Positions 51 through 60,064 of a stretch of 63,527 nt of DNA are shown here, in pieces (position 1 is the first letter of the stretch; each line of letters opens with the position of its first letter). The notes beneath the pieces are model-generated. The model was not told where the DNA came from. It did no database searches and saw only the letters and a list, made by a program, of their open reading frames with translations. Source of the stretch: Nanobdellati archaeon (lineage in GTDB: Archaea; B1Sed10-29; JAGVWA01); assembly GCA_018304505.1 (NCBI GenBank), contig JAGVWA010000005.1:1-63527 (forward strand). Reading direction: 5' to 3'. Both the position numbers and the translations under genes were made by a program.

Positions 51-299
51 TTAATGGTCTAGAGCCCCAATTGCGGAATCGTTTCTAAAAAGCGTTACTG
101 GATTCCATACAGATGACCAGCCTTCACCATTCCTGGTTTTTCTATCCCACTCATCTCCGCGAAGCCGGTACTCTCTACCCCCCCTCAATAAGTGTATGTG
201 GCCGTCTTCACCTGTAAAAACAGGTGGATTGCGACGTGTACTTCCGTTTCGTTCAATGCTATCTCTGCTCACTAATGTTGATTCTGCTGCTTCCCACAT
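51..299 (-). CDS. Met-Trp small orphan protein (82 aa)
   Basis: I recognise no family. The start is ATGTGG, preceded by a GGTGA ribosome-binding site 5 nt upstream and a TATA-like TTTTTATACTT near 331-341, so it looks like a real gene. The product is polar and Trp-rich in its second half (GDEWD, EGWSSVW), probably a small beta-rich soluble protein with no signal peptide. It is one of 15 genes in this window whose second residue is Trp. It lies just downstream of the damaged 3' end of aspS on the same strand. Function unknown. Confidence 0.6.
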   Translation of the reverse strand: MWEAAESTLVSRDSIERNGSTRRNPPVFTGEDGHIHLLRGGREYRLRGDEWDRKTRNGEGWSSVWNPVTLFRNDSAIGALDH

Positions 300-351
300 A
301 AAAACTCACCAATAAATTTCTGTCAAAAGAAGTATAAAAACTTTACGTGGC

Positions 352-446
352 TTACACGGGCTCATGATGAACGTGGCCGATGCTCAATTCCTTTAATTGG
401 TCCGCGTGTACTTCGCTAGGCGCGTCAAGCATCGTGTCTTGCGCAT
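352..446 (-). pseudogene. out-of-frame C-terminal tail of aspS
   Basis: Reading one base out of the aspS frame from about 446 gives NAQDTMLDAPSEV followed by HADQLKELSI and a stop at 352-354. This matches the usual C-terminus of bacterial AspRS (APSEVxxxQLKELxI). The shift coincides with loss of about a dozen codons that should encode SIRDxIAFPK. That looks more like a short deletion of a length not divisible by three than a single miscalled base. An assembly error cannot be excluded. Confidence 0.7.
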
Positions 447-1675
447 TCCTCGCGCGCCATCAACGCCACAAGCCTGTCTAGTCCGAAGGCGATGCCGCCA
501 TGCGGCGGAGCCCCGTGCTTAAGCGCACTGAGCAGGAAACCGAACTTCTCTTCAGCCTCTTTTTTAGACAAACCCAGGGTTTCCAACACCGACAACTGCA
601 ACTCTGGATCGTGAATCCTGATAGATCCTCCGCCGACCTCCCAGCCATTCAAAACCAAGTCGTAGGCCTTGGATCCCACCAGCTTTGGATTCTTGAAATC
701 AGTAGACGTGGGCATCGTAAACGGATGATGTGCTGCTTTCCACTTCTTGTCTTCATCTGAAAATTCGAACATCGGAAAGTCAGTTACCCAAAGGAACTTG
801 AATTCCTCTGGAGACTTTCTCAGGTCCGGCTTGTCAGTCTTGTATTTTTCGAAAGCTTCCCGATATGTCATCTTCTCAAATGGGATTTTCACATCAACGC
901 CGAGGCACTCCTTGAATAAGTGCTTCATTAGCCGCTCGTTCAATTCAATCAGGTCTTGTTGTTCCACAAAGCTCATTTCAAGATCAATTTGCGTGAATTC
1001 AGGCTGCCTGTCAGACCTTAAGTCCTCATCCCTGAAGCAGCGCACGATTTGGAAGTACTTGTCGTATCCTGAGATCATGAGCAGCTGCTTGAACAACTGC
1101 GGAGATTGGGGTAAAGCGTAGAACTTTTTCTTGTTCACGCGGCTCGGCACAAGGTAATCCCTGGCGCCTTCTGGCGTGGACTTGGCAAGAAAAGGCGTTT
1201 CGATTTCCAGGAAGCCTTCCTTGTCAAGGAAATCACGAGCTGCTTTTGTGACTTTGTGGCGCAGCTTTAGGTTGTTCTGCATCCTGGGTCGACGTAGGTC
1301 GATGTAGCGGTACTTCATCCTGTTTTCTTCTGTCGACTCAATTTTCTCATCCAATGAAATCGGCAGCTCTGAGGCCTTGTTTAACAATTCGATTTTCTCT
1401 GCCGAGACTTCGATGTCGCCCGTGTCAAGCTTGGGGTTGCCTTTGGGTTTCACCTTTACCACACCCGGGACTTTGATAACCGACTCCTTAGTTAGGTCTC
1501 TGACGCTATCTAGCAAATTCTGGGGAACGAAAACCTGCGTAGTGCCGTACCTGTCCCTGAGGTCGATGAAGGCCATCTTTGACTGAATTCTGATTGAGTC
1601 GAGCCATCCGCACAAGATGACATGTTCACCTTGGTTCTCCTTCCTGAGCTCGTTGCAAGTATGAGTGCGCATCAT
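425..1675 (-). CDS. aspS: aspartyl-tRNA synthetase, bacterial type, GAD-less, 3' frameshift
   Basis: Class II AspRS, which charges tRNA-Asp. The N-terminal OB fold begins MRTHTCNEL and reads CGWLDS, then FIDLRDRYGTTQVF, which is bacterial rather than archaeal in type. Motif 2 (FRDEDLRSDRQPEFTQID) and the motif 3 arginine (AFGLDRL) are present. Bacterial enzymes of about 590 aa carry a GAD insertion after the KPDLR motif. Here TDKPDLR runs straight into FLWVTDFP, so GAD is missing and the protein is only 416 aa. The conserved SIRDxIAFPK segment after motif 3 is also absent, and the frame ends early in ECARHDA. The expected tail (DAPSEVHADQLKELSI) is present in the next frame, down to 352. Transferred from bacteria and then trimmed; whether it is active is uncertain. 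Confidence 0.9.
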   Translation of the reverse strand: MMRTHTCNELRKENQGEHVILCGWLDSIRIQSKMAFIDLRDRYGTTQVFVPQNLLDSVRDLTKESVIKVPGVVKVKPKGNPKLDTGDIEVSAEKIELLNKASELPISLDEKIESTEENRMKYRYIDLRRPRMQNNLKLRHKVTKAARDFLDKEGFLEIETPFLAKSTPEGARDYLVPSRVNKKKFYALPQSPQLFKQLLMISGYDKYFQIVRCFRDEDLRSDRQPEFTQIDLEMSFVEQQDLIELNERLMKHLFKECLGVDVKIPFEKMTYREAFEKYKTDKPDLRKSPEEFKFLWVTDFPMFEFSDEDKKWKAAHHPFTMPTSTDFKNPKLVGSKAYDLVLNGWEVGGGSIRIHDPELQLSVLETLGLSKKEAEEKFGFLLSALKHGAPPHGGIAFGLDRLVALMAREECARHDA

Positions 1676-1734
1676 AATACTCGCTATGCTTATGCCATTT
1701 TGGTGTTTTAAAGCCTATCTATGATTCCCGCGGA

Positions 1735-1752
1735 TTGCAAAATCTATAAATA
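1735..1752 (+). promoter_or_regulatory. TTGCAAAA-TATA promoter unit (copy a)
   Basis: TTGCAAAA is directly followed by TCTATAAATA, and CCCGCGGA precedes it. The same arrangement recurs at 2155, 34277, 55486 and 60230. Here it drives the GTG-start gene at 1786, with a ribosome-binding site between. Confidence 0.6.
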
Positions 1753-1785
1753 CTACAGTTGCGCAATTATATTGGGGTGATTTGG

Positions 1786-2127
1786 GTGTGGGATAAGGTT
1801 CCACAAACTATCGAGCAAGTCAACGAAAATAAAACACGCACAGTGGAAACGCTTTTTGCTAACACATACCTGCTTGACGACGGCACCGTGCTGCAGGAAC
1901 ACTTCGATGACATGCATGACGGCAATGGCTTCATGAGCGGACCATACCGGCTTACTGGAGGCACGCTAAACACAAATGAGGATGCCCAACGGCTCATAAG
2001 CCGAGCCATAACTTTGAAGGCAGAAGAACTCCAGCGGCTCGAGTCCAAAATCGACTCGCTGCAGAATGAAAGTTCCGGCATTCAAGACACCTTAACAAGG
2101 TTAGGGGACTTCGGAGAAACGCAATAA
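1786..2127 (+). CDS. Met-Trp small protein with coiled-coil tail (113 aa)
   Basis: Family unknown. The start is GTGTGG, with GGGGTGA ending 5 nt upstream; longer in-frame starts would overlap the promoter. Residues 1-65 look beta-rich (YLLDDGTVLQEH, then GTLNTNED). Residues 70-113 form an amphipathic helix rich in Leu, Glu and Ser, probably a coiled coil. It is a clear paralogue of the gene at 2839: both share WDKxP, YLxxDGxVLxxH, GTLxTxE and a helical tail ending in LxxLxDx. Soluble; function unknown. Confidence 0.7.
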   Translation: MWDKVPQTIEQVNENKTRTVETLFANTYLLDDGTVLQEHFDDMHDGNGFMSGPYRLTGGTLNTNEDAQRLISRAITLKAEELQRLESKIDSLQNESSGIQDTLTRLGDFGETQ

Positions 2128-2838: not shown

Positions 2839-3189
2839 ATGTGGGATAAAATACCACTAACAGCCAACAGGGCTGTTGAAATGCAGCAAACATCACAAGG
2901 CAGGCTACCCGGCGATGGGTTCAGATACCTTATGCCAGACGGAAGTGTGCTAGAGCAACACGTCGAGGACGCGTCATTGACAAGCTGGGACGAACGGCTC
3001 TTTGTAGCCTCAGGAACATTACACACCGACGAGGGTGCAGCGGCAATAAAAGGAAGAGCGCTACAAGCAGCCAAAGAAGTGCTTGCAATAGAAGAATCAA
3101 CCCTAGCGAATGAACGCGCCGCGATATCAAGCACCGAGGCAAGGATTTCAGAAACGCGTGACATGCTAGCGAAACTAAGCGATCTGTAG
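2839..3189 (+). CDS. Met-Trp small protein, paralogue of 1786 (116 aa)
   Basis: Starts ATGTGG, with GGGGGTGA 6 nt upstream and a TATA-like CATTATAAGC near 2792. It shares WDKIP, YLMPDGSVLEQH, GTLHTDEG and an Ala/Glu-rich helical tail (about residues 65-116) with the protein at 1786. The acylphosphatase fusion sits between the two paralogues. Probably a soluble beta-domain plus coiled-coil protein. Function unknown. Confidence 0.7.
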   Translation: MWDKIPLTANRAVEMQQTSQGRLPGDGFRYLMPDGSVLEQHVEDASLTSWDERLFVASGTLHTDEGAAAIKGRALQAAKEVLAIEESTLANERAAISSTEARISETRDMLAKLSDL

Positions 3190-4378: not shown

Positions 4379-4627
4379 CTAAACAGCGTCATCGCTCTCT
4401 GCTACCTGTGATGCGCGACTGGCCTCAAGGTCATGCAGCCTGCCAAGGTCATCAAGATCGCGCCCAGTAACCTGCACAACGTGATTGTCAGTGACCTGGA
4501 AAGCACAGTCGCCGTCTTTGCTAATGACATACTCAATACCGCCAATTGTGCGGGTCTGGCCCTCCGCAAGCTGCTTCCTGAACACGCGTTCTGCTTCAGT
4601 TCTTTCAAATGTATGCACGGCCCACAT
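4379..4627 (-). CDS. Met-Trp small orphan protein (82 aa)
   Basis: Start ATGTGG, with GGAGGTGA about 6 nt upstream. The N-terminal helix (residues 3-22) is followed by a beta-rich middle (IGGIEYVISKDGDCAFQV, then HVVQVTG) and an acidic tail ending AESDDAV. It lies first downstream of two other Met-Trp genes on the same strand (4659 and 5016). No family recognised. Confidence 0.6.
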   Translation of the reverse strand: MWAVHTFERTEAERVFRKQLAEGQTRTIGGIEYVISKDGDCAFQVTDNHVVQVTGRDLDDLGRLHDLEASRASQVAESDDAV

Positions 4628-4658: not shown

Positions 4659-4904
4659 TCACTCAACCCACATGGTGTCAAGATTATGGCCATTGATCCT
4701 CTCAAGGTTGTCCCACAATCCATTGAGCCCCCTGATTTGCCTGCGGGCCATGTCCTGTTCCGCGTCAGAACCACCTGCAGCGTCTTTCCTGAGTACTTCC
4801 AAGGTCCTGTTGAACTCCGCACGGGCACCCGGAACATTCCGACCACGATGCAAGTGCCTGATTTTCTCAAGCGACGAAGTCCACGCTTCTGATTGCATCC
4901 ACAT
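4659..4904 (-). CDS. Met-Trp small helical protein (81 aa)
   Basis: Start ATGTGGATG. A TATA-like TTATTTAT lies about 30 nt upstream (4930-4938), so it is probably leaderless; a longer in-frame start exists but lies inside the promoter. The product looks all-helical and Arg-rich (residues 8-70), with Trp near both ends (MWMQ and MWVE). Function unknown. Confidence 0.55.
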   Translation of the reverse strand: MWMQSEAWTSSLEKIRHLHRGRNVPGARAEFNRTLEVLRKDAAGGSDAEQDMARRQIRGLNGLWDNLERINGHNLDTMWVE

Positions 4905-5015: not shown

Positions 5016-5291
5016 TTACTTATCCCCGTTGAGGATATCAAGCACCTCGACCTTCAAGCGCTCGCCCTCGTCAAATGTCTGCGAGTAATCCATGATGTAC
5101 TGTGCATCATCTAAGACGAGCCTCAGCAAGCCGCGCCTGTCGCTTTCAAACGTTGCACACTGCGACATTTCAAGCCCAATTCTGGCGCTCAGTAATGAAT
5201 CTTTCAAAAAACCGTCATTGCCGGCCCTAAGCCATGCTGTCACCTTCTCGGCGTCATCCAATGCCTTAAACGCGCCATCATAGCTCCACAT
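5016..5291 (-). CDS. Met-Trp small helical protein (91 aa)
   Basis: The ATGTGG start is preceded by TTGAGGT and by TATA GCTTTATATT at 5317-5326. The protein is predicted to be all-helical: residues 5-25, 30-48 and 53-72, then an acidic KVEVLDILNGDK end. It resembles in pattern, not in recognised family, the helical Met-Trp proteins at 59024 and 59328. Function unknown. Confidence 0.6.
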   Translation of the reverse strand: MWSYDGAFKALDDAEKVTAWLRAGNDGFLKDSLLSARIGLEMSQCATFESDRRGLLRLVLDDAQYIMDYSQTFDEGERLKVEVLDILNGDK

Positions 5292-5566: not shown

Positions 5567-6106
5567 ATGGCAGAACAGGCACAAACAGAATTCAGAGGCG
5601 TTGTTAGGCTAGCAACGAAAACAGTCAACGGCAGCCTCAGCTTGCCAATGGCGCTGCAACAAATCAAAGGCGTTGGAAACCCACTAGCAAACGCGTTATC
5701 AAAACACGCCGCGGTCACGTTCAAGATTTCCCCGAAGGAAAAAGTCGGCAACCTCTCAGACGCACAACTCGAACAGCTGGAAGGCCTTGTCAACGACCCA
5801 AGAAAAGCCGATCTCCCAATCTGGTTCCTGAACAGACAAAGGGCATACGACACAGGCAAGGACGAGCATAAGGTTATGGCCGAACTCGATTTCCAAAAGC
5901 AACTCGACATACAGTTTCACAAGACCATCAGGACATACCGCGGAGTCAGACACATGTTCGGCCTTACATCCAGAGGACAACGAACCAGAACCAGCGGCAG
6001 GAAGGGCACAACTGTCGGGGTGCAGAGAAAGAAGGAACAGCCCGCAAAGAAAAAAGCAGGACCTGCAAGCAGCGGCCCGGCAAAGGGTGGCGGAAAGAAA
6101 AAATAG
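5567..6106 (+). CDS. rps13: 30S ribosomal protein uS13
   Basis: Head protein of the small subunit, contacting tRNA and inter-subunit bridges. Hallmarks are FRGVVRLATKTVNG, IKGVGNPLANAL (helix-hairpin-helix), TYRGVRHMFGLTSRGQRT and SGRKGTTVGVQRK. The C-terminus has an extra Lys/Gly/Pro tail of about 25 residues. First gene of the ribosomal/RNAP operon. The ATG at 5567 gives MAEQAQTEF; a GTG 12 nt earlier is less likely. Confidence 0.96.
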   Translation: MAEQAQTEFRGVVRLATKTVNGSLSLPMALQQIKGVGNPLANALSKHAAVTFKISPKEKVGNLSDAQLEQLEGLVNDPRKADLPIWFLNRQRAYDTGKDEHKVMAELDFQKQLDIQFHKTIRTYRGVRHMFGLTSRGQRTRTSGRKGTTVGVQRKKEQPAKKKAGPASSGPAKGGGKKK

Positions 6107-6115
6107 AGTGATTGA

Positions 6116-6739
6116 ATGGGCGACCCAAGACGACTGAGGAAAAAGTACACCACCCCGGGACATCCCTGGGAGAAGCAGAGAATAGAAACTGAAAACAAAC
6201 TTAAACAAGATTATGGACTAAAGAACAAAAAGGAGATCTGGAAAGCCGAAACCGCAGTACGGAAGTACAGGCACCTTGCGCGAGGACTTGTCGGTATCAC
6301 GAGCGGAGATAGACAAGCAAAAGAAACAGTCCTAATAAATAAACTGAAAAAGACCGGCCTACTACCCCAAGACGGAAGCATCGATGACGTCCTGTCACTG
6401 AAATCAGAGGACCTGCTCGAACGCCGACTTCAGACGCTGGTGCTGAAGCAGGGCCTCGCGACAACAACCGACCAATCACGCCAGTTTATAACGCACGGCC
6501 ACATCGCACTAGACGGCAGGAAAGTAACCTCGCCAAGCATGATAATCAAGGTTGAGGAAACTGGAAAACTCGGGTGGTACGGCAAACCAATAGAATTCCA
6601 TAGAAAGGAAACCACCGTGCCGACAGAGGGCTCAAAAACAATCAGGCGAATCGACAAAGAAACCCAAAAGGCGGGAATCGAACTAGAAAAAACGGCAGCA
6701 GAAGAAATTCTTGCCGAAGCCAATGAAACAGCAGAGTGA
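6116..6739 (+). CDS. rps4: 30S ribosomal protein uS4
   Basis: A primary 16S rRNA binder. It begins [20 protein letters not shown], the archaeal S4 signature, and has an S4 RNA-binding domain in the middle ([35 protein letters not shown]). 207 aa, slightly longer than usual, with an acidic tail. Nine bases after uS13, same operon. Confidence 0.96.
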
Positions 6740-6744
6740 TAATA

Positions 6745-7134
6745 ATGGCAGACGGACAATGGGGCATAGCACACATATATTCAACAAAGAACAACACCAT
6801 CATCACACTTACAGACCTGACAGGCTCTGAAACAATAGCCAAGAGTTCAGGGGGCATGGTCGAAGACTCACAAAGAAAAGAAGGATCGCCAACCGCCGCC
6901 CTAAAAGCAGCACAAAGAGTTGCCACGACCGCATTGACGAAGGGCATCACAGGGGTACACATCCTCGTAAGGGCCCGCGGTGCACAGTACTCAAAAATCC
7001 CCGGCTCCGGGGCACAGGCAGCCATAAGGGCACTGTCAAGAACCCCACTACGGATCGGACGAATAGAAGACGCCACGCCAATACCGCACGGAATGATGCG
7101 AAAGAAAGGCGGAAAACGAGGCAGGAGAGTCTAA
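6745..7134 (+). CDS. rps11: 30S ribosomal protein uS11
   Basis: Platform protein of the small subunit. Motifs are [41 protein letters not shown] and the basic end [11 protein letters not shown]. The ATG at 6745 gives MADGQWG and sits 6 nt after the uS4 stop, which carries the GTGAT ribosome-binding site. 129 aa, normal length. Confidence 0.97.
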
Positions 7135-7160
7135 GGTCTAAGCATTTTACCGAGGTAATC

Positions 7161-7772
7161 ATGATGAAAATAAAATATTCAAAAAAAGGCGATGACAAAA
7201 TCGAGTTCACGCTCGAAGACACCAGTGTCGCGTACGCAAACGCGCTGCGAAGGACGCTGATGAACGACGTGCCTGTAATGGCCGCCAAAGATGTGGACAT
7301 TTACGAAAACACGAGCAGCATGTTCGACGAATTCATCGCCCACCGCATAGGGTTAATACCATTAACAACAGACCTGAAAACATACAAGGCCCGCGAATCG
7401 CAGGCAGAGGCGCTTGACAGCAAGAACTCGGTGCTGCTGACGCTGGACGCAAAAGGGCCAAAAATGGTCTACTCCGGCGACATGAAAACAAAAGACAAAA
7501 ACGTCGACGTTGTAGAGAAAAAAATCCCAATAATCAAACTCGGCAAGGATCAAAAGCTAAGGCTCGAGGCGCACGCAGTCCTGGGCTTTGGAAGAGACCA
7601 CGCGAAGTGGCAGCCTTGCCTGGCAACGTACACAGAAACCGAGACAGGCAAAACCAAGAAATACAATTTCATGATAGAATCATTCGGAAACCTCACAACC
7701 AAAGACCTGATGAAACAAGCGAGAACAATAATAGAAGACAAGGCAACCGCCCTCGAACAACAGCTCAAGTAA
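7161..7772 (+). CDS. rpoD: DNA-directed RNA polymerase subunit D
   Basis: Archaeal homologue of Rpb3/alpha that nucleates RNAP assembly with subunit L. YANALRRTLMNDVPVMAAKDVDIYENTS and HRIGLIPLTTD are diagnostic. At 203 aa it lacks the Cys-rich Fe-S domain found in many archaeal D subunits. GAGGTAATC precedes the ATGATG start. Confidence 0.95.
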   Translation: MMKIKYSKKGDDKIEFTLEDTSVAYANALRRTLMNDVPVMAAKDVDIYENTSSMFDEFIAHRIGLIPLTTDLKTYKARESQAEALDSKNSVLLTLDAKGPKMVYSGDMKTKDKNVDVVEKKIPIIKLGKDQKLRLEAHAVLGFGRDHAKWQPCLATYTETETGKTKKYNFMIESFGNLTTKDLMKQARTIIEDKATALEQQLK

Positions 7773-7786
7773 ATATTAGTGCTAAC

Positions 7787-7871
7787 GCGGGGGTGCCTGA
7801 GTCAGGAAAAAGGGCACGGTTGAGGGCCGTGTGGCTAAGTGCCTACGAGGGTTCAAATCCCTTCCTCCGCA
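7787..7871 (+). tRNA. tRNA-Leu (GAG)
   Basis: The 7-bp acceptor stem GCGGGGG/CCTCCGC and the anticodon stem CACGG/CCGTG close loop TTGAGGG, giving anticodon GAG. There is a long variable arm (GGC/GCC) and a T-arm GAGGG-TTCAAAT-CCCTT. The class II length of 85 nt fits Leu. CCA is not encoded. It sits between rpoD and rpl18e, a position known from some Euryarchaeota. Confidence 0.93.
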
Positions 7872-7876
7872 TCAGC

Positions 7877-7934
7877 CTTTTGCTGACGCAAAAGCTTGGG
7901 GAAAACGATGGGCCAGATCGCAAGCGATCGGGCT
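7877..7934 (+). other. two tandem hairpins after tRNA-Leu
   Basis: CTTTTGC-TGAC-GCAAAAG (7877-7894) and GGCCAGATCG-CAAG-CGATCGGGCT (7911-7934, one A-G mismatch). They lie between tRNA-Leu and a TATA-like CATTAAACC (7937) that may start eL18 transcription. They may act as a processing or termination signal, or as a leader structure. Confidence 0.45.
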
Positions 7935-7976
7935 GCATTAAACCACACTTACTAAAAAAACATAAAACCAAAAAAG

Positions 7977-8327
7977 ATGAAACAAATGCGAGAAAAGACA
8001 AATCCACAACTGGAAAAAGCAATAACTGAGCTAGAAAAAACAAAAAAGCCGATCTGGAGAGCCGTGGCTAAGAAACTCAAAAGCCCCACAAGAAACCGGG
8101 CAGCAGTCAACCTCTCAAAAATCGACAGGCACACCAAGGAAAACGACGTTGTCATAATCCCAGGCAAGCTCCTCAGCGACGGCGATTTAAAACATAAGGT
8201 AGCCATCGGCGCATTCAACGCGTCAAAAAAAGCCATTGAAAAAGTGATGCAACAAGGCAGCACGTACATGCCGCTCCTTGACATGGTGGAAAAAACGCCA
8301 AAAGGCAGAATCATGATAATGCAGTAA
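7977..8327 (+). CDS. rpl18e: 50S ribosomal protein eL18
   Basis: Archaeal/eukaryal L18e, 116 aa. It begins MKQMREKTNPQLEKAITELEK, with the conserved VNLSKIDRHTKENDVVIIPGKLL and the end GSTYMPLLDMVEKTPKGRIMIM. It starts a sub-operon with uL13, uS9 and RpoN. Confidence 0.95.
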   Translation: MKQMREKTNPQLEKAITELEKTKKPIWRAVAKKLKSPTRNRAAVNLSKIDRHTKENDVVIIPGKLLSDGDLKHKVAIGAFNASKKAIEKVMQQGSTYMPLLDMVEKTPKGRIMIMQ

Positions 8328-8348
8328 ACAATTTAGTGAGTGAAGCAC

Positions 8349-8756
8349 ATGATATACGACGGAGAAAACGCAATACTAGGCAGGCTCGCGACCAGGGTCG
8401 CAAAACAAGCCCTCAACGGCGAGTTCGTAGAAATAATTAACGCTGAAAAAATCGTCATCACAGGAAGCACAAAAACCACAATAGCAGAATACAAGGAACG
8501 CAGGGGCCGCAGGGACATCGCAAAACCCGTAAAGAGCCCAAAGACCCCGAGAAGGCCGGACATTATGGTACGAAGGGCCATCAGGGGCATGCTCCCATGG
8601 CAATCGCAAAGGGGAAAGGACGCGTACAAGCGCATAAAAGTATACATGGGGAATTTCGATAGCAAGGAAGGCGAGAAGATCGCACAGGCAAGGCAAGGCC
8701 AAAAAACAACCCAAGTACTCGAGGTATGCAAATCACTAGGATGGAGCGGACTATAA
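8349..8756 (+). CDS. rpl13: 50S ribosomal protein uL13
   Basis: 135 aa. The signature is IYDGENAILGRLATRVAKQAL, then VEIINAEKIVITGS and RRAIRGMLPWQSQRGKDAYKRIKVYMG. The ATG at 8349 fits GTGA upstream; an in-frame GTG at 8340 is less likely. The stop overlaps the next start by one base (TAATG). Confidence 0.96.
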   Translation: MIYDGENAILGRLATRVAKQALNGEFVEIINAEKIVITGSTKTTIAEYKERRGRRDIAKPVKSPKTPRRPDIMVRRAIRGMLPWQSQRGKDAYKRIKVYMGNFDSKEGEKIAQARQGQKTTQVLEVCKSLGWSGL

Positions 8757-9178
8757 TGGCAAAACAAACAGTAGTACAAACCAGCGGAAAAAAGAAAACC
8801 GCCGTGGCAAGACTAACATTGAAACCAGGAGTCGGCGACATAAAAATCAACGGCGTCCCATTGCAGCAACTTACGCCAAAAGCTGCACAGACAATCATCA
8901 ACGAACCGATAGTCATAGCCAAAGACATCCTAGGAGAAGACTTTGCAAAACAAATCGACGTGCAAATCAACACCAACGGCGGCGGAACAATGGGCCAGTC
9001 ATTCGCAGCGAGAACCGCCCTGGGAGCCGCACTCACAGAATATTCACAAAACGACGACTTAAAAAAGACATACAACGCCTACGACAGGACACTGCTGCAC
9101 AGCGACACAAGGGTCAAGGAATCAAAGAAATTCCTAAGAAAAGGCGCAAGAGCAAAACCAACCAAGTCATACCGATGA
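8756..9178 (+). CDS. rps9: 30S ribosomal protein uS9
   Basis: 140 aa. It begins MAKQTVVQTSGKKKTAVARLTLKPGVGDIKIN and ends RVKESKKFLRKGARAKPTKSYR; the C-terminal tail reaches the P-site tRNA. Coupled to uL13 by a one-base overlap. Confidence 0.97.
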   Translation: MAKQTVVQTSGKKKTAVARLTLKPGVGDIKINGVPLQQLTPKAAQTIINEPIVIAKDILGEDFAKQIDVQINTNGGGTMGQSFAARTALGAALTEYSQNDDLKKTYNAYDRTLLHSDTRVKESKKFLRKGARAKPTKSYR

Positions 9179-9200
9179 TTAAAAAAGGTGATACTGAAAA

Positions 9201-9401: not shown

Positions 9402-9417
9402 GCAAGCGCGAGGGAAC

Positions 9418-9525: not shown

Positions 9526-9541
9526 GTATTGGTGGTAAATT

Positions 9542-10723: not shown

Positions 10724-10767
10724 CCCCATTAAATTTTCTTGGGGGGTAAAAACAGGTGACATAAGAC

Positions 10768-12769: not shown

Positions 12770-12771
12770 GC

Positions 12772-13983
12772 ATGACAAACTACAAACCCACAATTCTAAA
12801 GCACGCGCTAAAGAACGCAGTAGAGCATGATGGGAAAGCACAGCAGGGAGCTGTAATAAACAAGGTCATCGGCGAGCACCCTGAGGCAAAAAGCGACATG
12901 GCGAACCTCGGAAAACAAACAGCAGAGGTCGTGAACGAAATCAATGCAATGACACAAGATCATCAGAAAGCCGAGTTACTGAGCCTGTGGCCCAACGCGC
13001 TGGAGAAGAAACCCGAACCAGAAAGGCAACTAAAGCCCCTGCCAGGGAACACAAGCCACGTCGTGGTGAGGTTCGCGCCAAACCCAAACGGGCCGCTGAC
13101 ACTTGGTGGCTCGCGCGTGCTGATTCTGAATGATGAGTACGCAAAGAAATACAACGGCACACTTCATTTAAGATTCGACGACACAGACCCACAGAACAAA
13201 AAACCACTGCCTGAAGCCTATACCTGGATACAGGAAGAAGCAAAATGGCTCGGCTGCAACGTTTCAAAAGTATACATTGCGTCAGACCACATGGAAGACT
13301 ACTACAAGATAGCCGAGCAGCTGCTCGAAAAAGGCGACATGTACATATGCACATGCCCCGCAGAAGAATTCAGCGAATTGAAAAACAACGGCAAGGCGTG
13401 CCCCTGTAGGCCTAATTCGATAGCCGCCAACAAGGCGCTTTGGAAACAAATGCACTCAGGCGAGGCTAAAAAGGGCGCGGCGGTGGCGAGGATAAAGACA
13501 GACATAAAGCTGAAAAACAACGCACTGCGCGACTGGCCAGCGTTCAGGATCGCGACAGAGCCGCACCCGCGCACGGGAACTAAGTACCGCGTGTGGCCAA
13601 TGCTTGATTTTGCAGGCGCAGTGCTCGACAAAATGAACGGGATTACACACATCATCAGGGGCAAGGACTTAATGAGCAGCACAGACCGGCAGACTATAAT
13701 GTACAAAATGCTTGGCTGGGCGTATCCTGAAACCATGTACGTCGGCCGCGTGGCGATTCACGAGTTCGGCAGGCTCAGTACAAGCGAAATCAAGCAGGGC
13801 ATTGCTGACGGCCGATTTACAGGCTGGGACGATCCCCGGCTGCCAACGCTGCAAGCACTCATCAAAGCTGGAGAAATAAAACCAGAAGCCCTAAGGGAAT
13901 TCTGGCTCGAATTCGGCATCAGCGAACGCGACATAAGTGCAGACCTGCAGATCCTGGAATCGATAAACAGGAAGCTGACCTAA
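12772..13983 (+). CDS. gltX: glutamyl-tRNA synthetase, lacking anticodon-binding domain
   Basis: Archaeal-type class I GluRS. The N-terminal region (HALKNAVEHDGKAQQGAVINKV), RFAPNPNGPLTLGG, LRFDDTDP, a zinc-binding CTCPAEEF..CPCR segment and GWDDPRLPTL are present. At 403 aa it stops where the C-terminal beta-barrel anticodon domain should begin; family members are about 550 aa. The HIGH-box equivalent reads TLGG, with neither His. I chose the ATG at 12772 (MTNYKP) just after fni. A Met-Trp gene on the other strand overlaps its stop codon by 4 bp. Confidence 0.92.
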   Translation: MTNYKPTILKHALKNAVEHDGKAQQGAVINKVIGEHPEAKSDMANLGKQTAEVVNEINAMTQDHQKAELLSLWPNALEKKPEPERQLKPLPGNTSHVVVRFAPNPNGPLTLGGSRVLILNDEYAKKYNGTLHLRFDDTDPQNKKPLPEAYTWIQEEAKWLGCNVSKVYIASDHMEDYYKIAEQLLEKGDMYICTCPAEEFSELKNNGKACPCRPNSIAANKALWKQMHSGEAKKGAAVARIKTDIKLKNNALRDWPAFRIATEPHPRTGTKYRVWPMLDFAGAVLDKMNGITHIIRGKDLMSSTDRQTIMYKMLGWAYPETMYVGRVAIHEFGRLSTSEIKQGIADGRFTGWDDPRLPTLQALIKAGEIKPEALREFWLEFGISERDISADLQILESINRKLT

Positions 13984-14156
13984 ATACCATCAAGCTTGTT
14001 GAGTAATTCCCCAACTTCACGATATGCAGCCGTGTCAACGGGGTTTCCCCAAAGGATCTCAAGATGTGTTCGCTGGACCTGATCCTGTAAAGCCCCCCGG
14101 ACATCTTCCGCAACGCGTTTTGCCTCCGTAAACTGCTGTTTATTCCCGTTCCACAC
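13980..14156 (-). CDS. Met-Trp small helical protein (58 aa), GTG start
   Basis: Start GTGTGG, with a very strong GGGGGTGA 5 nt upstream and TATA TTTTTTATAG at about 14193-14202. 58 residues, probably two or three helices (FTEAKRVAEDVRGALQDQV, then DTAAYREVGELLNKL). No family recognised. It ends against the truncated gltX gene, in the place where that gene's anticodon domain would be encoded. Confidence 0.6.
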   Translation of the reverse strand: MWNGNKQQFTEAKRVAEDVRGALQDQVQRTHLEILWGNPVDTAAYREVGELLNKLDGI

Positions 14157-23969: not shown

Positions 23970-24176
23970 TCACTCAGTTTTATTCCGGAAATCTTCGAAT
24001 TCAAACTCCCCCTCGTCATCTTCATCAATATCTCCAAATTCTTTATCCCACGAATCAATATCCTCTAAGTCTTCAAGGCTAATACCATTGGCGTCAAGCC
24101 AAGTAAGAGAATCGGCGATCTGCTTCACTAACGCGCGCTTTTCTTTAATACTCAATTCCGTTTCATGAGTCCACAT
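23970..24176 (-). CDS. Met-Trp small acidic protein (68 aa)
   Basis: Start ATGTGG, with GGGGGAA about 12 nt upstream and TATA AGTAATATAT near 24220. N-terminal helix (LSIKEKRALVKQIADSLTWL), then a very acidic tail (residues 32-64, mainly Asp, Glu and Phe). No family recognised. It stands alone between two convergent or divergent metabolic genes. Confidence 0.6.
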   Translation of the reverse strand: MWTHETELSIKEKRALVKQIADSLTWLDANGISLEDLEDIDSWDKEFGDIDEDDEGEFEFEDFRNKTE

Positions 24177-31821: not shown

Positions 31822-32148
31822 TTAGACTTCTTCCAAATTCCTAACGTGCTGCATTGCTCTTTGGGCTTGCTGCATTGAATACCGGAATGATGAAGCTTCA
31901 CGTGCAAAGAACTGCTCAGCTTCCCTAACGCCAACGGCTCTGTGATCTCCAGAGTGCGCAGTTATGGTTCCTGCTCGTCCTTCTGAAAACTGCATGAAAA
32001 CCTTGTCTGGCGTGCTGACGTATTTCACGTACCCGCTAGGGGTTTTGTAGAACACAGACTCGTCAATGTGCTGCCTGCCCATCTCAGTCAATAACTGCAT
32101 GTAATCTTGCCGGCTTTCTTGCCAGCTTGCTTCTTCAATCTGCCACAT
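31822..32148 (-). CDS. Met-Trp protein, third gene of a Met-Trp operon (108 aa)
   Basis: ATGTGG directly follows the stop of the gene upstream (TGAATGTGG), with GGAGGTGG placed inside that gene's last codons. N-terminal helix, a beta middle (ESVFYKTPSGYVKYVSTPDKV, then GTITAHSGDH), and a C-terminal Ala/Gln-rich helix (residues 70-104). The plan matches the proteins at 1786 and 2839: a beta domain with G-T-aliphatic-T, then a coiled coil. Function unknown. Confidence 0.65.
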   Translation of the reverse strand: MWQIEEASWQESRQDYMQLLTEMGRQHIDESVFYKTPSGYVKYVSTPDKVFMQFSEGRAGTITAHSGDHRAVGVREAEQFFAREASSFRYSMQQAQRAMQHVRNLEEV

Positions 32149-32454
32149 TCAACCACCTCCATGAAAAATAATCTGATCTATAGAAGACTCAAATTCTTTC
32201 TTAGCATTAGCAATTGCCTGCTCGCTACTTTTTATAGTCCTATTAATAGCCTCATTACCAACAATACAGGCTGTCCTCAATTTATCACCATCTTCACCAA
32301 TGGCAACTGTGTATTCTGTTAGACTACTACAGTTCTCCACTATCACATCTTCCCCCATATCAAAAACGCTAGTGTCCAATATTCTTGTCCCAACCATATC
32401 CCTGGTTCTTTCCTGTGCATCCCGATTATATCCCAAATTGAAAATTTCCCACAT
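32149..32454 (-). CDS. Met-Trp protein, second gene of a Met-Trp operon (101 aa)
   Basis: ATGTGG, with GGGGGCGA 7 nt upstream, inside the 3' end of the preceding gene. Beta region with VFDMGEDVIVENC and EYTVAIGEDGDKL, then a helix (RTIKSSEQAIANAKKEFESS) and a terminal HGGG that also encodes the next gene's ribosome-binding site. More AT-rich than its neighbours, which hints at separate origin. Function unknown. Confidence 0.65.
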   Translation of the reverse strand: MWEIFNLGYNRDAQERTRDMVGTRILDTSVFDMGEDVIVENCSSLTEYTVAIGEDGDKLRTACIVGNEAINRTIKSSEQAIANAKKEFESSIDQIIFHGGG

Positions 32455-32456
32455 TA

Positions 32457-32807
32457 TTATTCGCCCCCTAATTCGGCTAGGGCACGTGATCGCACTTCCA
32501 GCGCATCAGTCTCCCTAATCCGTAAGTCTGCGATTTCTACCCTAAGATTTTCTTTGTATGCTGTTACATCATTCGCTCCTGTAATGAGTATTGTTACCGG
32601 TGTTTCCGACACCCGGCGTGGGTCTATTGTCCTGTAATGGACAGCATGATTGCCATTATTGAAAAACGTTCCCATTCCGTTACCTAGATTGACTCCATCG
32701 CCTTTTTCAACTATCTCACGAACTTGTGGAGGTAGCAATTCGTCATATTTCCCCCCCCTCTCCACAGACCATCTATCTGGTGATACATCATATTGCGGCA
32801 TCCACAT
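32457..32807 (-). CDS. Met-Trp protein, first gene of a Met-Trp operon (116 aa)
   Basis: ATGTGGATG, with AGGAGGATGA upstream and TATA ACTATAAT near 32834. An Arg/Trp-containing head, a middle with NLGNGMGTFFNNGNHAVHYR, a strand VTILITG, and a C-terminal helix (residues 78-114). Divergent from a winged-helix regulator across a region with two dyads, so regulation by that protein is plausible. Function unknown. Confidence 0.65.
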   Translation of the reverse strand: MWMPQYDVSPDRWSVERGGKYDELLPPQVREIVEKGDGVNLGNGMGTFFNNGNHAVHYRTIDPRRVSETPVTILITGANDVTAYKENLRVEIADLRIRETDALEVRSRALAELGGE

Positions 32808-35199: not shown

Positions 35200-35412
35200 G
35201 TGTGGTCTGAAAAAGACAAGAAAGATGGTGAGCAGAAAAAAGACGAGAAGACCACTGACACAAAACCACTCGAAATAAAACCCGACGAAAAAAGCTCCTC
35301 AGCAGAAACTGTTACAGAAGCAAGCAAGCACCATGGGTCAGAACTCCTGACATTCATGTTGGTGGCGATTCTAATCATGATACTATTCGACATGCTAATG
35401 AGAAGTATCTAG
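35200..35412 (+). CDS. Met-Trp tail-anchored membrane protein (70 aa), GTG start
   Basis: GTGTGG, with AGAGGAAG upstream; TATA CTTAAATAC at 35169 lies about 26 nt before it. Residues 2-48 are highly charged (Lys, Asp, Glu). Residues 49-66 are one hydrophobic helix (LLTFMLVAILIMILFDML), so it is a C-tail-anchored protein with the Trp2 end in the cytosol. The only Met-Trp member here with a membrane segment. Confidence 0.6.
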   Translation: MWSEKDKKDGEQKKDEKTTDTKPLEIKPDEKSSSAETVTEASKHHGSELLTFMLVAILIMILFDMLMRSI

Positions 35413-46502: not shown

Positions 46503-46512
46503 GTGAATTAAA

Positions 46513-50378: not shown

Positions 50379-51256
50379 TAATGATTCCATTCCTGCCGCT
50401 GCCATACAAGGTAACATTGGAACTCTCCAGGTTCCTGAGGCCAGCAGCGCAACGAATAGCATTTCTTTTTCCGGGCCTCGGAATGCAACTCAAACAAGCC
50501 GAGGTCGACATTCCAGCAACATCGTACCTGTCGATCGTTGTGTTCTCGTTCAGTGCCTTTAGCATTTTCTTTGCCGCTTTTTTTCTCCTGGTAGGATACT
50601 TCGCAGCATCACGCCAACTCTTACAACTGAGCCCACTGCTCGGTATAGGCATAGGCATTCTTGTGAGCCTCCAGCAGCTCGCATATCCCAAGATAATCAT
50701 TATACGCAAAGGACGCGGTGTTGACAGGAACTTAGTGTTTGCGCTGCGCAACCTGCTAATACAAATGAAGAGCGGCGTGCCCATGTTCGACGGCATCAAT
50801 GACATTGCAAAAGCAGACCACGGAGAACTATCAACAGAATTCGCCAAAGCTGTAAAAAAAATCGCTACTGGGGAACCCCCAGAAATGGTTTTTGAAGACC
50901 TAAGCAAAAACAACCCAAGTCCTTATTTGAGAAAGGTGCTGTGGCAACTATCAGACAGCCTCAAATCAGGCGGCGACATAACAACAACACTAGAGGAGAT
51001 AGTCGATAACCTGACAAAAGAACAATCAATACAAGTGAAAAAGTTTTCGTCTGTGCTAAACCCGATTATACTGATGTACATGATGATCGCCGTCATCGTC
51101 CCCTCCCTTGGAGTGAGCTTCCTTGTTGTGTTTTCCAGCTTTCCCGCCCTGAACATCACGGAATTCACGTTCACGGTACTCCTAGGCGTCATTACATTAA
51201 TTCAATTCATGTTCCTCGGTTCAGTGAGGTCGGCCACGCCGAAACTGTTAAGGTGA
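50375..51256 (+). CDS. tadC: pilus assembly membrane protein TadC/FlaJ-like (1)
   Basis: 293 aa. Membrane segments near 45-75 and 80-100, then the T2SSF domain (VFALRNLLIQMKSGVPMFDGINDIA, LRKVLWQLSDSLKSGGDITTTLEEI) and two C-terminal membrane segments. Platform protein for the pilus ATPase. Confidence 0.92.
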   Translation: MIMIPFLPLPYKVTLELSRFLRPAAQRIAFLFPGLGMQLKQAEVDIPATSYLSIVVFSFSAFSIFFAAFFLLVGYFAASRQLLQLSPLLGIGIGILVSLQQLAYPKIIIIRKGRGVDRNLVFALRNLLIQMKSGVPMFDGINDIAKADHGELSTEFAKAVKKIATGEPPEMVFEDLSKNNPSPYLRKVLWQLSDSLKSGGDITTTLEEIVDNLTKEQSIQVKKFSSVLNPIILMYMMIAVIVPSLGVSFLVVFSSFPALNITEFTFTVLLGVITLIQFMFLGSVRSATPKLLR

Positions 51257-51261
51257 AACCA

Positions 51262-52230
51262 ATGGATGTATTCGAAAAAATCGGGAGCATTTTCCCTGGA
51301 AAACTCAAGGACCTTTACGCCTTAAACCTCAAGCAGTCATACATCAAAAGCACCGCCGAAAAATACCTGGGAATCTCAATTGTGGGCAGCATTGGGCTCA
51401 CCGCAATCGTGACAGCATACCTCAGCCTGTTCAGCACACTAACGATTTACCACGCACTCGGCGCATTCCTTGTAATGAACGGCGTGTTCTACTTCAACCT
51501 CTCATTGTCAGTCGACAAGAAAACGCGCGACGTAAACACGTCTCTCCCGGACGCACTGCAGCTCATGGCAACCAACCTGCGGGCAGGCTTTACACCTGAC
51601 AAGGCCCTGTTCCTCAGCGCAAAAGAAGAATTTGGGCCACTGGAAGAAATCCTAAAGCAAGCTGGCAAAGAAATCTTGTCGGGGACAACAATGGAAGCGG
51701 CACTTAAAAATATGAACAACCAAGTAAGCTCTGAAAAGCTTGAAACGGTAACGCAACTAATAACGCAAGGCATCAAAGCAGGCGGAGAACTTTCAGAACT
51801 CCTAGACCATACAGCGATTGACATACAAGACGAAGCAATACGTGAAAAAGAACTCAAGGCAAGCATACTGCTCTACAGCATACTTATTTTTATTGCCATC
51901 GCGTTTGGAGGCCCATTCCTGTTTGGTGTCTCTTCATTACTGACACAAACACTAAAAGGCCTCCTAGGAACACCACAAGGGCCAGCAGTTATTTCCAATC
52001 TCCCTGTGAGCATGGGCGAGATAAAAATATCAGAGCAATTCATGCTCGACTTTTCAATAGCCGCCCTGCTGATAAGTTCAATATCAGGCAGCCTCATCAT
52101 TGGGCTTATACAAGGCGGCAAAGAAAAGCAGGGCCTGAAACTCCTCCCAATCATTTTGGCCATTTCCATGATAGTTTTCTATGGAACCCGCGTTTTACTA
52201 GCAGGCATGCTTAGCAATGTGTTTGCATAA
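51262..52230 (+). CDS. tadC: pilus assembly membrane protein TadC/FlaJ-like (2)
   Basis: 322 aa. T2SSF domain LPDALQLMATNLRAGFTPDKALFLSA and LITQGIKAGGELSELLDHTAID flanked by membrane helices. AAGGTGAAACC before the ATG favours 51262; a GTG at 51253 overlaps the previous stop. Two TadC subunits are usual beside an archaeal TadA. Confidence 0.92.
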   Translation: MDVFEKIGSIFPGKLKDLYALNLKQSYIKSTAEKYLGISIVGSIGLTAIVTAYLSLFSTLTIYHALGAFLVMNGVFYFNLSLSVDKKTRDVNTSLPDALQLMATNLRAGFTPDKALFLSAKEEFGPLEEILKQAGKEILSGTTMEAALKNMNNQVSSEKLETVTQLITQGIKAGGELSELLDHTAIDIQDEAIREKELKASILLYSILIFIAIAFGGPFLFGVSSLLTQTLKGLLGTPQGPAVISNLPVSMGEIKISEQFMLDFSIAALLISSISGSLIIGLIQGGKEKQGLKLLPIILAISMIVFYGTRVLLAGMLSNVFA

Positions 52231-52270
52231 CTCGTTGCAAAACCCGTCTCCAGCACAAAAACTGGCAAAC

Positions 52271-52280
52271 CTTTATAAAT
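52271..52280 (+). promoter_or_regulatory. strong promoter of the major pilin
   Basis: CTTTATAAAT lies about 34 nt before the pilin ATG, in an otherwise gene-free 79-bp gap, so the pilin has its own promoter apart from the assembly operon. A TTGCAAAA at 52235 is not at the spacing seen in the other copies. Confidence 0.6.
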
Positions 52281-52309
52281 AGACCCTGAATGAGTAATAA
52301 CGTGAGTAT

Positions 52310-52762
52310 ATGAAGGGACAGAGTGCACTAGAGTACCTAACAACCTATGGCTGGGCAATAGGTATAATAGTGATTGTCGTAGCAGCAATGTTCGCACTAG
52401 GCATCCTGAACCCAAGCACCTACACCAGTGACTCTTGTGTCGGTTTCGGCAAGCTGCCTTACCAGGAACACAAGGTAGACACAGATGGCATACTGACGCT
52501 GGTGCTCAAAAACGGGGTCGGCAGAAGCATATCAATAACAACAATGACAGTTACGCCGCAAGGTGGAACAGAGCAAACAGTGTTTACTAGCAACACGACC
52601 GTAGCACCACTAGCAGACATAACACTGGTAGCAGAAACAGGCGCAACAGGCTGGACAGGCACTGCTGGCGAAGCATACCAAGGAACAGTATCCGTGCTCT
52701 ACGACACAGCATCAATAACGGCAAACAGGGAAAGCGGCAGTTGCACAGGCGCGCTAGAATAA
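52310..52762 (+). CDS. major pilin, class III signal peptide
   Basis: 150 aa. MKGQSALEYLTTYGWAIGIIVIVVAAMFALGIL is the archetypal DUF361-type archaeal pilin start; cleavage follows KG. A beta-rich Thr/Gly domain with two Cys (SCVGFG and SCTG) follows. Likely the main subunit of the pilus assembled by TadA/TadC. Confidence 0.93.
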   Translation: MKGQSALEYLTTYGWAIGIIVIVVAAMFALGILNPSTYTSDSCVGFGKLPYQEHKVDTDGILTLVLKNGVGRSISITTMTVTPQGGTEQTVFTSNTTVAPLADITLVAETGATGWTGTAGEAYQGTVSVLYDTASITANRESGSCTGALE

Positions 52763-57836: not shown

Positions 57837-58232
57837 TCAGTTGACGACGCTAACTAAACCATTAAAACCAGCGTCGTATGTCATTATATGAGTTATTCCG
57901 TGGTTTTCCATGAGCGCTATATTTGTGCAGTCTGTAAAACTTAGCTTCTTGTGTTTCTTGAAGAGTTTCCAAGATTTTTCAAACGTCTCAGAGTCTACAA
58001 ATATCATCTCAAGTTTATCTAGAATTTTTTGGCCAAAGGCCGTTATCTTCTCATGATTCTTAAAACGTCGAAATGCGAAAGTCACGGTCTCATCAAAAAT
58101 ATAGTCTGAAACAAAAACTGCGCCGAATTTACCGCCCAAGACCTCTTTCATTTTCTCATAAACTGTCGCGTGTGATTTCTCCTCCTTACTGAGATATGCG
58201 ATAAAGGCAGATGTGTCAATCAAAATAGACAT
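57837..58232 (-). CDS. VapC-like PIN-domain toxin
   Basis: 131 aa. ILIDTSAFIAYL, a mid Glu/Asp (YIFDETVTF), KLSFTDCTNIALMENHGI and MTYDAGF give the PIN acidic quartet. Lies 3 nt after a ribbon-type antitoxin gene, as in VapBC. Predicted RNase. Confidence 0.88.
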   Translation of the reverse strand: MSILIDTSAFIAYLSKEEKSHATVYEKMKEVLGGKFGAVFVSDYIFDETVTFAFRRFKNHEKITAFGQKILDKLEMIFVDSETFEKSWKLFKKHKKLSFTDCTNIALMENHGITHIMTYDAGFNGLVSVVN

Positions 58233-58235
58233 TTT

Positions 58236-58478
58236 TCATCCCTCATAAAGGACTTTGTCTATCTCAGATATTGCGTCTGTAGAACCGATATGAAAATTTA
58301 TGGGCTTAAACTCAAGAAATTCTTTTGGATTCTTACGCGGTTTTTCTTCCTTCGCCCATTTTTCGAGCGCTCTGTTTACGGCGATTCCTAAACTAATCCC
58401 CAACTCAGCACTTCTTGCCTTGGCCATCATATACACACCCGTTTCTATTCCGCGAATGCACACTGTTGTACTTGTCAT
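58236..58478 (-). CDS. VapB-like antitoxin
   Basis: 80 aa. TTVCIRGIETGVYMMAKARSAELGISLGIAVNRALEKW has the ribbon-helix-helix pattern; the C-terminal part (residues 50-80) would bind the toxin. TATA TTTTTATAGG near 58500 is on the same strand. Confidence 0.82.
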   Translation of the reverse strand: MTSTTVCIRGIETGVYMMAKARSAELGISLGIAVNRALEKWAKEEKPRKNPKEFLEFKPINFHIGSTDAISEIDKVLYEG

Positions 58479-58707: not shown

Positions 58708-58851
58708 GTAGTGATCATGGTGGCTGCATGACAAGCCCCCCTTGGCCGAGGGGGCTTGTTATGCATTAAACTACGAGCTCAAATAACGCAGGGGTTTTTG
58801 TGCTCAGTGCGAATTTTCTGGAGGAAACGGAGGTGACGTTCCTATCACTAC
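58708..58851 (-). ncRNA. candidate structured RNA with 16-bp hairpin
   Basis: The 357-bp gap 58667-59023 has no good gene. It holds a 16-bp stem with one G-U pair (58725-58740 with 58750-58765, 9-nt loop). This lies within an 8-bp outer stem GTAGTGAT/ATCACTAC (58708-58715 with 58844-58851). On the minus strand a TATA box (58866-58873) predicts transcription from about 58844, and CTTTCCGAGAA is repeated upstream at 58891 and 58923. The outer stem is only partly inside that predicted transcript. Alternatively the hairpin terminates the Met-Trp genes ending at 59024. Confidence 0.45.
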
Positions 58852-59023
58852 TTACCGTACGTTTGTTTATATACCAAAACTAGTAAGCAACTTTCCGAGA
58901 ACTTCCCGGGTAACGGTTTTTGCTTTCCGAGAATTTAGGTACTCACTGAAATCACAAAGTACGAGCGCCCATGTTTGGAATTAAAACCGGAACTTGACTG
59001 CACTCAACACGAAGTAACGGGGT

Positions 59024-59311
59024 TCAGATTTCGTCAGGATCAACGAAATCGTCATCGAGATTTTTGGCTGCGCATTCAAAATCATGGCGCTGCAATCCAG
59101 CGTCGTCAATTCTTCCCGCGAGATAATGCACTAGCCCGTCTCTTCTAACTTCTCTTGCCCTGCCGATCATTGATTCCCTGCGGTCGATTTCCTTGTCAAT
59201 GTTATCCATCGCGGCACTGAGTAGTTTCCTTGCCAATTCCTGGTGGCCTGTTTCGGACAGTAGTTCTGCGGCCCCCATCACTGAATCTGCACAATCGCTG
59301 TTCATCCACAT
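59024..59311 (-). CDS. Met-Trp small helical protein (95 aa)
   Basis: ATGTGGATG, with TTTGGAGG upstream. Predicted all-helical (residues 8-75) with an acidic end (DDDFVDPDEI). It aligns loosely with the next gene upstream, at 59328: MW..D..D....A..L...G..E.A..LL. Third in a run of three same-strand Met-Trp genes. Function unknown. Confidence 0.65.
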   Translation of the reverse strand: MWMNSDCADSVMGAAELLSETGHQELARKLLSAAMDNIDKEIDRRESMIGRAREVRRDGLVHYLAGRIDDAGLQRHDFECAAKNLDDDFVDPDEI

Positions 59312-59327
59312 AACAAAACCTCCAAAG

Positions 59328-59582
59328 TTACTTTTTTAATTGCTGAGCAAGTTCGTTTGACTGTGCAGCCAACTGCTCCTGCTGTTGCCAGCATTCTCCT
59401 GCTTTTGCCATGTCTCCCATGGCTTGTGCCAGTGTCTCATCTGTTATCAGGAGCGAGCGCTCTTCAACTATTTGCTCCAGGCCGCCCCAGAGTAATTCAT
59501 GCGCTTCGCTTTTTCCCCCAACTTTCCTGAGTTGTGCTGCTGTTTCTATTATCGCGTCTTTAAAATCATCAGTTATCCACAT
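59328..59582 (-). CDS. Met-Trp small helical protein (84 aa)
   Basis: ATGTGG, with GGGGGATGAA 5 nt upstream; earlier in-frame ATGs lie before this ribosome-binding site. All-helical, Gln/Glu/Ala-rich (WQQQEQLAAQSNELAQQL end), likely coiled coil or TPR-like. Distant paralogue of the gene at 59024. Function unknown. Confidence 0.65.
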   Translation of the reverse strand: MWITDDFKDAIIETAAQLRKVGGKSEAHELLWGGLEQIVEERSLLITDETLAQAMGDMAKAGECWQQQEQLAAQSNELAQQLKK

Positions 59583-59662
59583 GCGTTCATCCCCCATATG
59601 TATTGTTGCCATAACGTTTGGGCAATGAAGTATAAAAAACATCTGTATGCACCTTGGGTTGC

Positions 59663-60064
59663 CTATTCATCCCAGCTTACCGTGCCTGTTTTTGGTTTGG
59701 TTGGGTCTGTAGATGCGGTTGGGTGTGCCACGGGAATGGCTGGTTTTGAGGCCTCCCTTGTAGGCGCCTCAGGCACATGCTCCTCTGCAAGTGTTTTCGG
59801 TAATGTGTCAAGGTCCTCGAGCTCCTTGATGGCGAGTTTACCCAGGTTACGGAAGCGCTGTCTTTTGCTGTTCAATACTGCACCTTCGAGAAATCGCGAG
59901 GCTCCATAGACGTCAATTGTTGCTGTGTGCGCTACACCACGCTCTTGCTCAACTCCACCGAGGTGGTTCCAGGCCTGCTGCAGGTTTTGCCTTGCAACTG
60001 GCTCTACAAGCAGCATGGCACCCATTTTTCTCATCGCCACCTTGGCTTCCTCAACGCTCCACAT
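59663..60064 (-). CDS. Met-Trp protein (133 aa) with Pro/Thr-rich tail
   Basis: ATGTGG start. Helical residues 3-40, a mixed middle (TATIDVYGASRFLEGAVLNSK), helix, then a disordered Pro/Ala/Thr tail ending TVSWDE. A second ATGTGG 19 nt upstream (60083) opens a 10-codon frame that stops just inside this gene, so translational coupling is possible. TATA CTTTAAATAC is at about 60160. Function unknown. Confidence 0.6.
   Translation of the reverse strand: MWSVEEAKVAMRKMGAMLLVEPVARQNLQQAWNHLGGVEQERGVAHTATIDVYGASRFLEGAVLNSKRQRFRNLGKLAIKELEDLDTLPKTLAEEHVPEAPTREASKPAIPVAHPTASTDPTKPKTGTVSWDE

Follow-up and report, generated by a model that had tools for sequence, protein, structure and literature searches.

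Met-Trp starts on small orphan proteins of a small-genome archaeon: a candidate N-terminal tag

Why should 15 small genes scattered over a single archaeal contig all place tryptophan directly after their start codon? The question is raised by a 63,527-nucleotide stretch of DNA from a Nanobdellati archaeon (contig JAGVWA010000005.1 of assembly GCA_018304505.1; hereafter the window), which is contig 19 of 21 in a 917-kb, 93%-complete archaeal genome. We have found that these genes, with one probable exception, belong to a genome-wide class of proteins opening with Met-Trp, which is real, limited in size, compositionally distinct, spread over at least two predicted folds and without detectable relatives. 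The explanation that we favor, with moderate confidence, is that about 90 lineage-specific proteins carry Met-Trp as an N-terminal tag, acting at the protein level and recognized by one partner that they share for sorting, delivery or docking. The existence of a common tag, one of the options in an original prediction made from the window alone, is supported by the results below; that it has a reader and a purpose is what we infer.

Tryptophan at the second position of small genes

The gene counts cover 626 kb, or 68% of the genome, in two samples. A home-made hexamer gene caller was built on the first 447 kb, and the second 179 kb was scored with the hexamer model of the first sample as held-out DNA. 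In the first sample, tryptophan as the second residue (Trp2) was found in 3/9 genes of 30–60 amino acids (aa), 8/46 of 60–90 aa, 18/55 of 90–120 aa and 4/54 of 120–150 aa, and in 0/56 genes of 150–200 aa, 1/97 of 200–300 aa and 0/129 above 300 aa (33 of 164 genes shorter than 150 aa versus 1 of 282 longer genes). The held-out sample gave 12 of 61 versus 2 of 100 (P = 2×10−4), and the pooled DNA 45 of 225 (1.7 expected) versus 3 of 382 (odds ratio 32, P = 1×10−17). Met-Trp opens about one in five small proteins of the sampled genome, in which the overall Trp frequency is 0.77%, so that the excess noticed in the window holds far above a level of about 1% among small genes. Among the three long exceptions, the window gene at 32915 has a doubtful start; the other two are an AAA ATPase and a protein of 153 aa encoded in tandem with a class member, of which it is a paralogue. 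The 626 kb held about 63 members, from which roughly 90, of about 40–155 aa, may be extrapolated to the whole genome.

By the same procedure, Trp2 was found in 1 of 115 small genes in stretches of ten other archaeal genomes, several of them of the same order and class. A scan of 297 archaeal genomes for GGTGA-N2-9-ATGTGG gave 21 matches here in 0.92 Mb, with 2 in the reversed control; in the table of matches, read by eye, the highest density per Mb listed was that of this genome, followed by genome G240 (25 matches in 1.4 Mb). The matches in two other genomes of the scan, G285 and G268, are strongly biased toward a single strand (0 vs 14 and 1 vs 10) and perhaps belong to a repeated element.

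The enrichment counts reject a chance origin of the Trp2 excess. Mis-called starts are unlikely, because ATGTGG lies at a suitable distance from the Shine-Dalgarno site and because the correction of two wrong calls led to Trp2. It is true that the hexamer model takes in codons 1 and 2, so that it slightly favors those starts that were already common in the training set. About 20 extra ATGTGG frames with a strong Shine-Dalgarno site and a weak hexamer score were listed only and stand outside the enrichment counts. Contamination was rejected as well, since class genes share contigs with ribosomal and tRNA-synthetase genes.

The composition of their bodies independently marks the Met-Trp proteins as a coherent class. 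Residues 9 to the end alone separate members from other small proteins in a cross-validated classifier (area under the curve 0.962). Members are Lys-poor, Arg/Asp-rich and acidic, with a median K/(K+R) of 0.36 versus 0.68 in other small proteins (P = 1×10−20). Two proteins without Trp2 that were scored as members, C8 42781 and C8 14243, have missed in-frame ATGTGG starts just upstream; several of the remaining high-scoring proteins without Trp2 look conserved (e.g., a ferredoxin and a lipoprotein). The codon usage of the class correlates with that of resident genes at 0.89, against 0.995 for other small genes. The class has more NNT codons although its GC content at first and second codon positions is higher, so a simple GC effect does not account for the amino-acid shift. 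AT skew is very strong in the window at 6001-21000 and 45001-48000 (up to +0.48), where coding strands are A-rich and T-poor, and the class partly escapes this bias in its codon choice.

Class genes occupy 42 loci in the sampled DNA, as single genes or runs of up to four that fill gaps between housekeeping genes, and 20 of 22 adjacent pairs are co-stranded. None of the non-class genes interleaved in these arrays has Trp2; the signature therefore follows the protein class, not the operon. A TATA box lies within 70 bp of half of the class genes, further upstream than in leaderless neighbors. On contig 13 (L076, 11025-12315), three tandem genes open MWDIT, MWDIR and MWDIQ, the third with a long Asp-rich tail, possibly a case of ongoing diversification.

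The genes of the window

The 15 window genes are as follows; each is an orphan opening with Met-Trp unless stated otherwise, and the motifs given lie upstream of the start.

51..299, minus strand: 82 aa, single Lys, Arg-rich; ATGTGG start, TTGGTGAG
1786..2127, plus strand: 113 aa, GTG start, beta plus long helix class; GGGGTGA; 33% identity to the paralogue at 2839-3189
2839..3189, plus strand: 116 aa, predicted beta-alpha-beta-beta-beta plus a 52-residue helix; GGGGGTGA
4379..4627, minus strand: 82 aa, no Pfam match; GGAGGTGA
4659..4904, minus strand: 81 aa, without Shine-Dalgarno; weakly similar to the Met-Trp protein C14_446 (E = 0.0097)
5016..5291, minus strand: 91 aa, helical class
13980..14156, minus strand: 58 aa, GTG start; GGGGGTGA
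23970..24176, minus strand: 68 aa, acidic tail; GGGGGA
31822..32148, minus strand: 108 aa, beta plus helix class, in class alignments A1/A2; GGAGG
32149..32454, minus strand: 101 aa; GGGGGCGA
32457..32807, minus strand: 116 aa; GGAGGA
35200..35412, plus strand: GTGTGG start, 70 aa, Lys-rich, C-terminal membrane segment; probably outside the class
59024..59311, minus strand: 95 aa, helical; GGAGG
59328..59582, minus strand: 84 aa, helical; GGGGGA; weakly similar to the gene starting at 59311 (E = 0.03)
59663..60064, minus strand: 133 aa, helical class, Pro-rich tail, without Shine-Dalgarno

Each start was read in place, and all are ATGTGG or GTGTGG with frames of 58–133 aa, just as the original prediction had listed them. 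Its statement that none of about 75 other window genes has Trp2 is nearly right: the longest frame at 32915-33778 (plus strand, 287 aa, no Pfam match) opens with MWLAYLQVMALRDSQ... and hence with Met-Trp. Judged from the sequence, its true start may be Met10 (MALRDSQ); if not, no other long gene of the window has Trp2. The strong Shine-Dalgarno-like sites that had been reported are present, G-rich, in most of the genes and missing from those starting at 4904 and 60064 on the minus strand. For the gene at 35200, described earlier as tail-anchored, the tail and the Lys-richness are seen; these sequence features suggest that it is probably a chance start outside the class, and it was excluded from class statistics.

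Two tandem arrays of three Met-Trp genes each lie at 31822-32807 (31822..32148, 32149..32454 and 32457..32807) and at 59024-60064 (59024..59311, 59328..59582 and 59663..60064). The latter has toxin-antitoxin-like neighbors: a PIN-domain protein, preceded by a small gene, on one side (57837-58478, minus strand) and a ribbon-helix-helix protein on the other (60678-60935, minus strand).

The description of the products as orphans also stands. Pfam searches with the 15 window proteins and 49 others, and NCBIfam searches with those 49, gave no match above the cut-off but C1_32232, which lies outside the window and was rejected as a member: it is RNA polymerase subunit P (RPO12), with a chance Met-Trp start. 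Among 17 beta-type members, the best matches were at E = 0.003 in PHROGs and E = 0.008 in PADLOC, each for one member. A fold search of the PDB gave nothing below E = 0.001, and one of BFVD no match. When the beta-type model was aligned by VIA-align, nothing but its coiled-coil helix exceeded Z 5, a level that is still noise; AFV1 ORF-99 and SIRV3 AcrID1 (Z 3.5–3.6) fall under the noise level, and AcrIF25, the top match of the helical model, is not evidence at E = 0.16. No relatives of members were found in the order, the class, three viral-contig scans or phages, and for the product of 2839..3189 none in its order or class. Our search of the open-access literature turned up no paper that treats Met-Trp starts as a class.

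Apparent constraint on the N-terminus and competing explanations

Around the starts, per-position information rises above background only within ATGTGG and in the Shine-Dalgarno region, and the regions upstream of class genes share no k-mer or motif besides TATA and Shine-Dalgarno. Gene cassettes joined at a fixed ATGTGG site, which had also been proposed, are therefore rejected. Inside the protein, 34 of 61 members have Asn, Gln, Asp or Glu at residue 3 (15 expected, P = 2×10−7), with A, C or G as the first base of the codon, and the position preferences fade by residue 8. To judge from the sequences, the preferences at residue 3 and at residues 3–8 look like a constraint on the peptide. No common C-terminal signal was found among the members. 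The N-terminal preferences are consistent with an N-terminus (Met-Trp, a usually polar residue 3 and a signal ended by residue 8) that would be under protein-level selection for recognition by a receptor, carrier or exporter shared by the class, the body being free to diverge. A bulky second residue should block methionine aminopeptidase, and a peptidase of the corresponding M24 family is encoded in the genome; Met-Trp would for that reason persist, exposed, on the mature protein. No signal peptide or hydrophobic leader was found in member sequences, and the models fold from residue 4, so that Met-Trp would directly precede the folded body.

The same start could have been kept by descent, the class being one very fast-evolving paralogous superfamily whose ancestral Trp2, structural or binding in role, needs no tag reader. 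We regard this as possible, if unlikely. Same-strand tandem arrays favor it, and the word "family" in the original prediction holds in part: there are two clear paralogue pairs, C13_11462/12003 (E = 3×10−12) and 1786/2839 (E = 3×10−9). All-versus-all comparison without the first three residues gave 29 weak similarities versus 14–20 in shuffles, a slight excess, and several beta-type bodies have a DG-hairpin and C-terminal helix layout in common. However, most of the 64 members have no recognizable relative inside the class, the position preference ends by residue 8, and the start sits on two unlike predicted folds. AlphaFold2 models 2839-3189 as a sheet with the 52-residue helix (mean predicted local distance difference test, pLDDT, 86.9) and a contig 8 member as a four-helix bundle (pLDDT 82.8), bearing out the beta-plus-coiled-coil and all-helical bodies expected from the window. 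Two unlike predicted folds, with body similarity nearly at shuffle level, speak against a single homologous family. Lineage-specific expansions of orphan paralogues in symbiont genomes resemble the class in their tandem arrays, orphan status and rapid divergence, and differ from it in that the same two-residue start is found here on at least two unlike predicted folds.

Several points weigh against a tag. The structure models were built on alignments of 6–7 sequences, most of them 12–35% identical. In both modelled folds, residues 4–8 are at the same time the start of the first strand or helix, and the preference at positions 3–8 may do no more than mirror fold starts (N-cap and beta residues). 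Descent accounts for part of the class, as is clear from the tandem paralogues. No reader, receptor or exporter was identified, and no close relative genome was found, hence selection on Trp2 as opposed to the body is something that we infer. The argument is drawn from sequence and predicted models, and the lifestyle and taxon of the organism are themselves presumed.

A degradation or stability signal seems improbable to us; in this case Met-Trp, persisting either free or N-acetylated, would direct a set of short-lived regulators to the archaeal proteasome or else protect them. Met followed by a bulky residue is an N-degron in eukaryotes, and here, as in the bacterial ClpS N-end rule and the eukaryotic Met-hydrophobic and N-acetyl pathways, the first one or two residues recognized would be bulky and hydrophobic; the few Lys residues would also limit Lys-linked modification. 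Moreover, eukaryotic NatC acetylates Met-Phe/Trp starts (PMC7608589). Against this, the ClpS adaptor (PF02617) is absent from the 93%-complete genome, and Met-Trp goes with a single class, compositionally distinct and below about 155 aa, a restriction for which a degron offers no reason, and not with unstable proteins generally. We know of no archaeal Met-aromatic degron pathway.

The start could also act in the mRNA: AUGUGG might be the binding site of an RNA regulator, or be adjusted for initiation, and in this way co-regulate the genes. Called Trp2 genes are Shine-Dalgarno-led in 58% of cases versus 22–30% of other genes, and class TATA boxes lie further upstream than those of other genes. 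However, Trp2 occurs in 0/77 long Shine-Dalgarno-led genes and in 20/155 small genes lacking such a site, and GTG starts are not depleted in the class (7/64 versus 9/200 other small genes). A translation signal, the remaining option of the original prediction, is therefore unlikely by its main test; the residue-3 amino-acid preference with its varied first base and the whole-body composition that tracks Trp2 also disagree with it, and we give an mRNA-level signal very little credence. Scattered virus or mobile-element remnants with a common Met-Trp start would account for the codon usage unlike that of residents and for small acidic orphans such as are typical of archaeal viruses, and would agree with the very weak, below-noise AFV1 and SIRV3 fold matches, but this origin is highly unlikely given that the best PHROGs match is poor, the lack of viral-contig, phage and BFVD relatives, the dispersal among housekeeping genes with no hallmark viral genes in the arrays inspected, and a fixation of Trp2 that it leaves unexplained.

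Possible readers and neighboring genes

If Met-Trp is a tag, its likeliest use, on a speculative view and still somewhat short of probable, is to deliver or sort a repertoire of fast-evolving proteins, for example to a host cell in symbiosis; docking on a common intracellular scaffold comes next, equally as speculation. A new archaeal sorting or delivery system that recognizes N-terminal Met-Trp on about 90 fast-evolving proteins, possibly symbiont effectors sent to a host, is a tentative and rather doubtful proposal. Neither the contractile tail sheath (PF04984) nor a VirB4-type ATPase of type IV secretion (PF12846) is present in the 93%-complete genome. The window encodes a pilus-type cluster at 41955-52762 (plus strand) with class III signal peptides, an 801-aa MG2-domain protein, a T2SSE ATPase and T2SSF. 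Protein nanotubes linking a DPANN archaeon to its host have been observed (PMC11329633).

Known systems offer partial parallels. The class resembles the oomycete RXLR and Plasmodium PEXEL effector repertoires, in which a short N-terminal motif follows a secretion signal peptide, in that a short fixed motif stands on many small, fast-evolving, otherwise unrelated orphans; it differs in having the motif at residues 2–3, an immediate fold, no signal peptide seen and its occurrence in an archaeon. Encapsulin and microcompartment cargo peptides and the leaders of contractile-injection cargo similarly use a short terminal peptide to load diverse proteins into one carrier, but in these systems the tag exceeds two or three residues in length, and no such carrier was found here. 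Motif-tagged effectors, cargo peptides and N-degrons thus each fail a tested defining feature or lack the matching machinery.

If a Met-Trp tag is real, few N-terminal address labels recognized on unrelated folds would be as short, and it would give a handle on the role of many orphan genes in small-genome archaea. Should it direct delivery to a partner cell, it would open a route to predicting archaeal effector sets, of which, to our knowledge, almost no members are known. The residue-2 signature is simple enough for a direct mutational test.

Ordinary archaeal genes of the window include those for aspartyl/lysyl/asparaginyl-type tRNA synthetase, enolase, ribosomal proteins S2 and S13, aIF2-gamma and eIF5B-type GTPases, and the organism appears to be of a small-genome lineage with DPANN traits. 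A tree weakly places the window beside records of Micrarchaeota, in a group with members of its own order and class. A genome scan with aIF2-gamma gave matches in distant archaea only, and one with eIF5B found no match. Finally, the Glu/Gln-tRNA synthetase catalytic domain encoded at 12745-13983 (plus strand) ends 3 residues before the stop codon. The anticodon-binding domain PF03950, present in controls including four archaea, was not found in the 93%-complete genome, and the enzyme is a candidate for a truncated, split or highly diverged GluRS.

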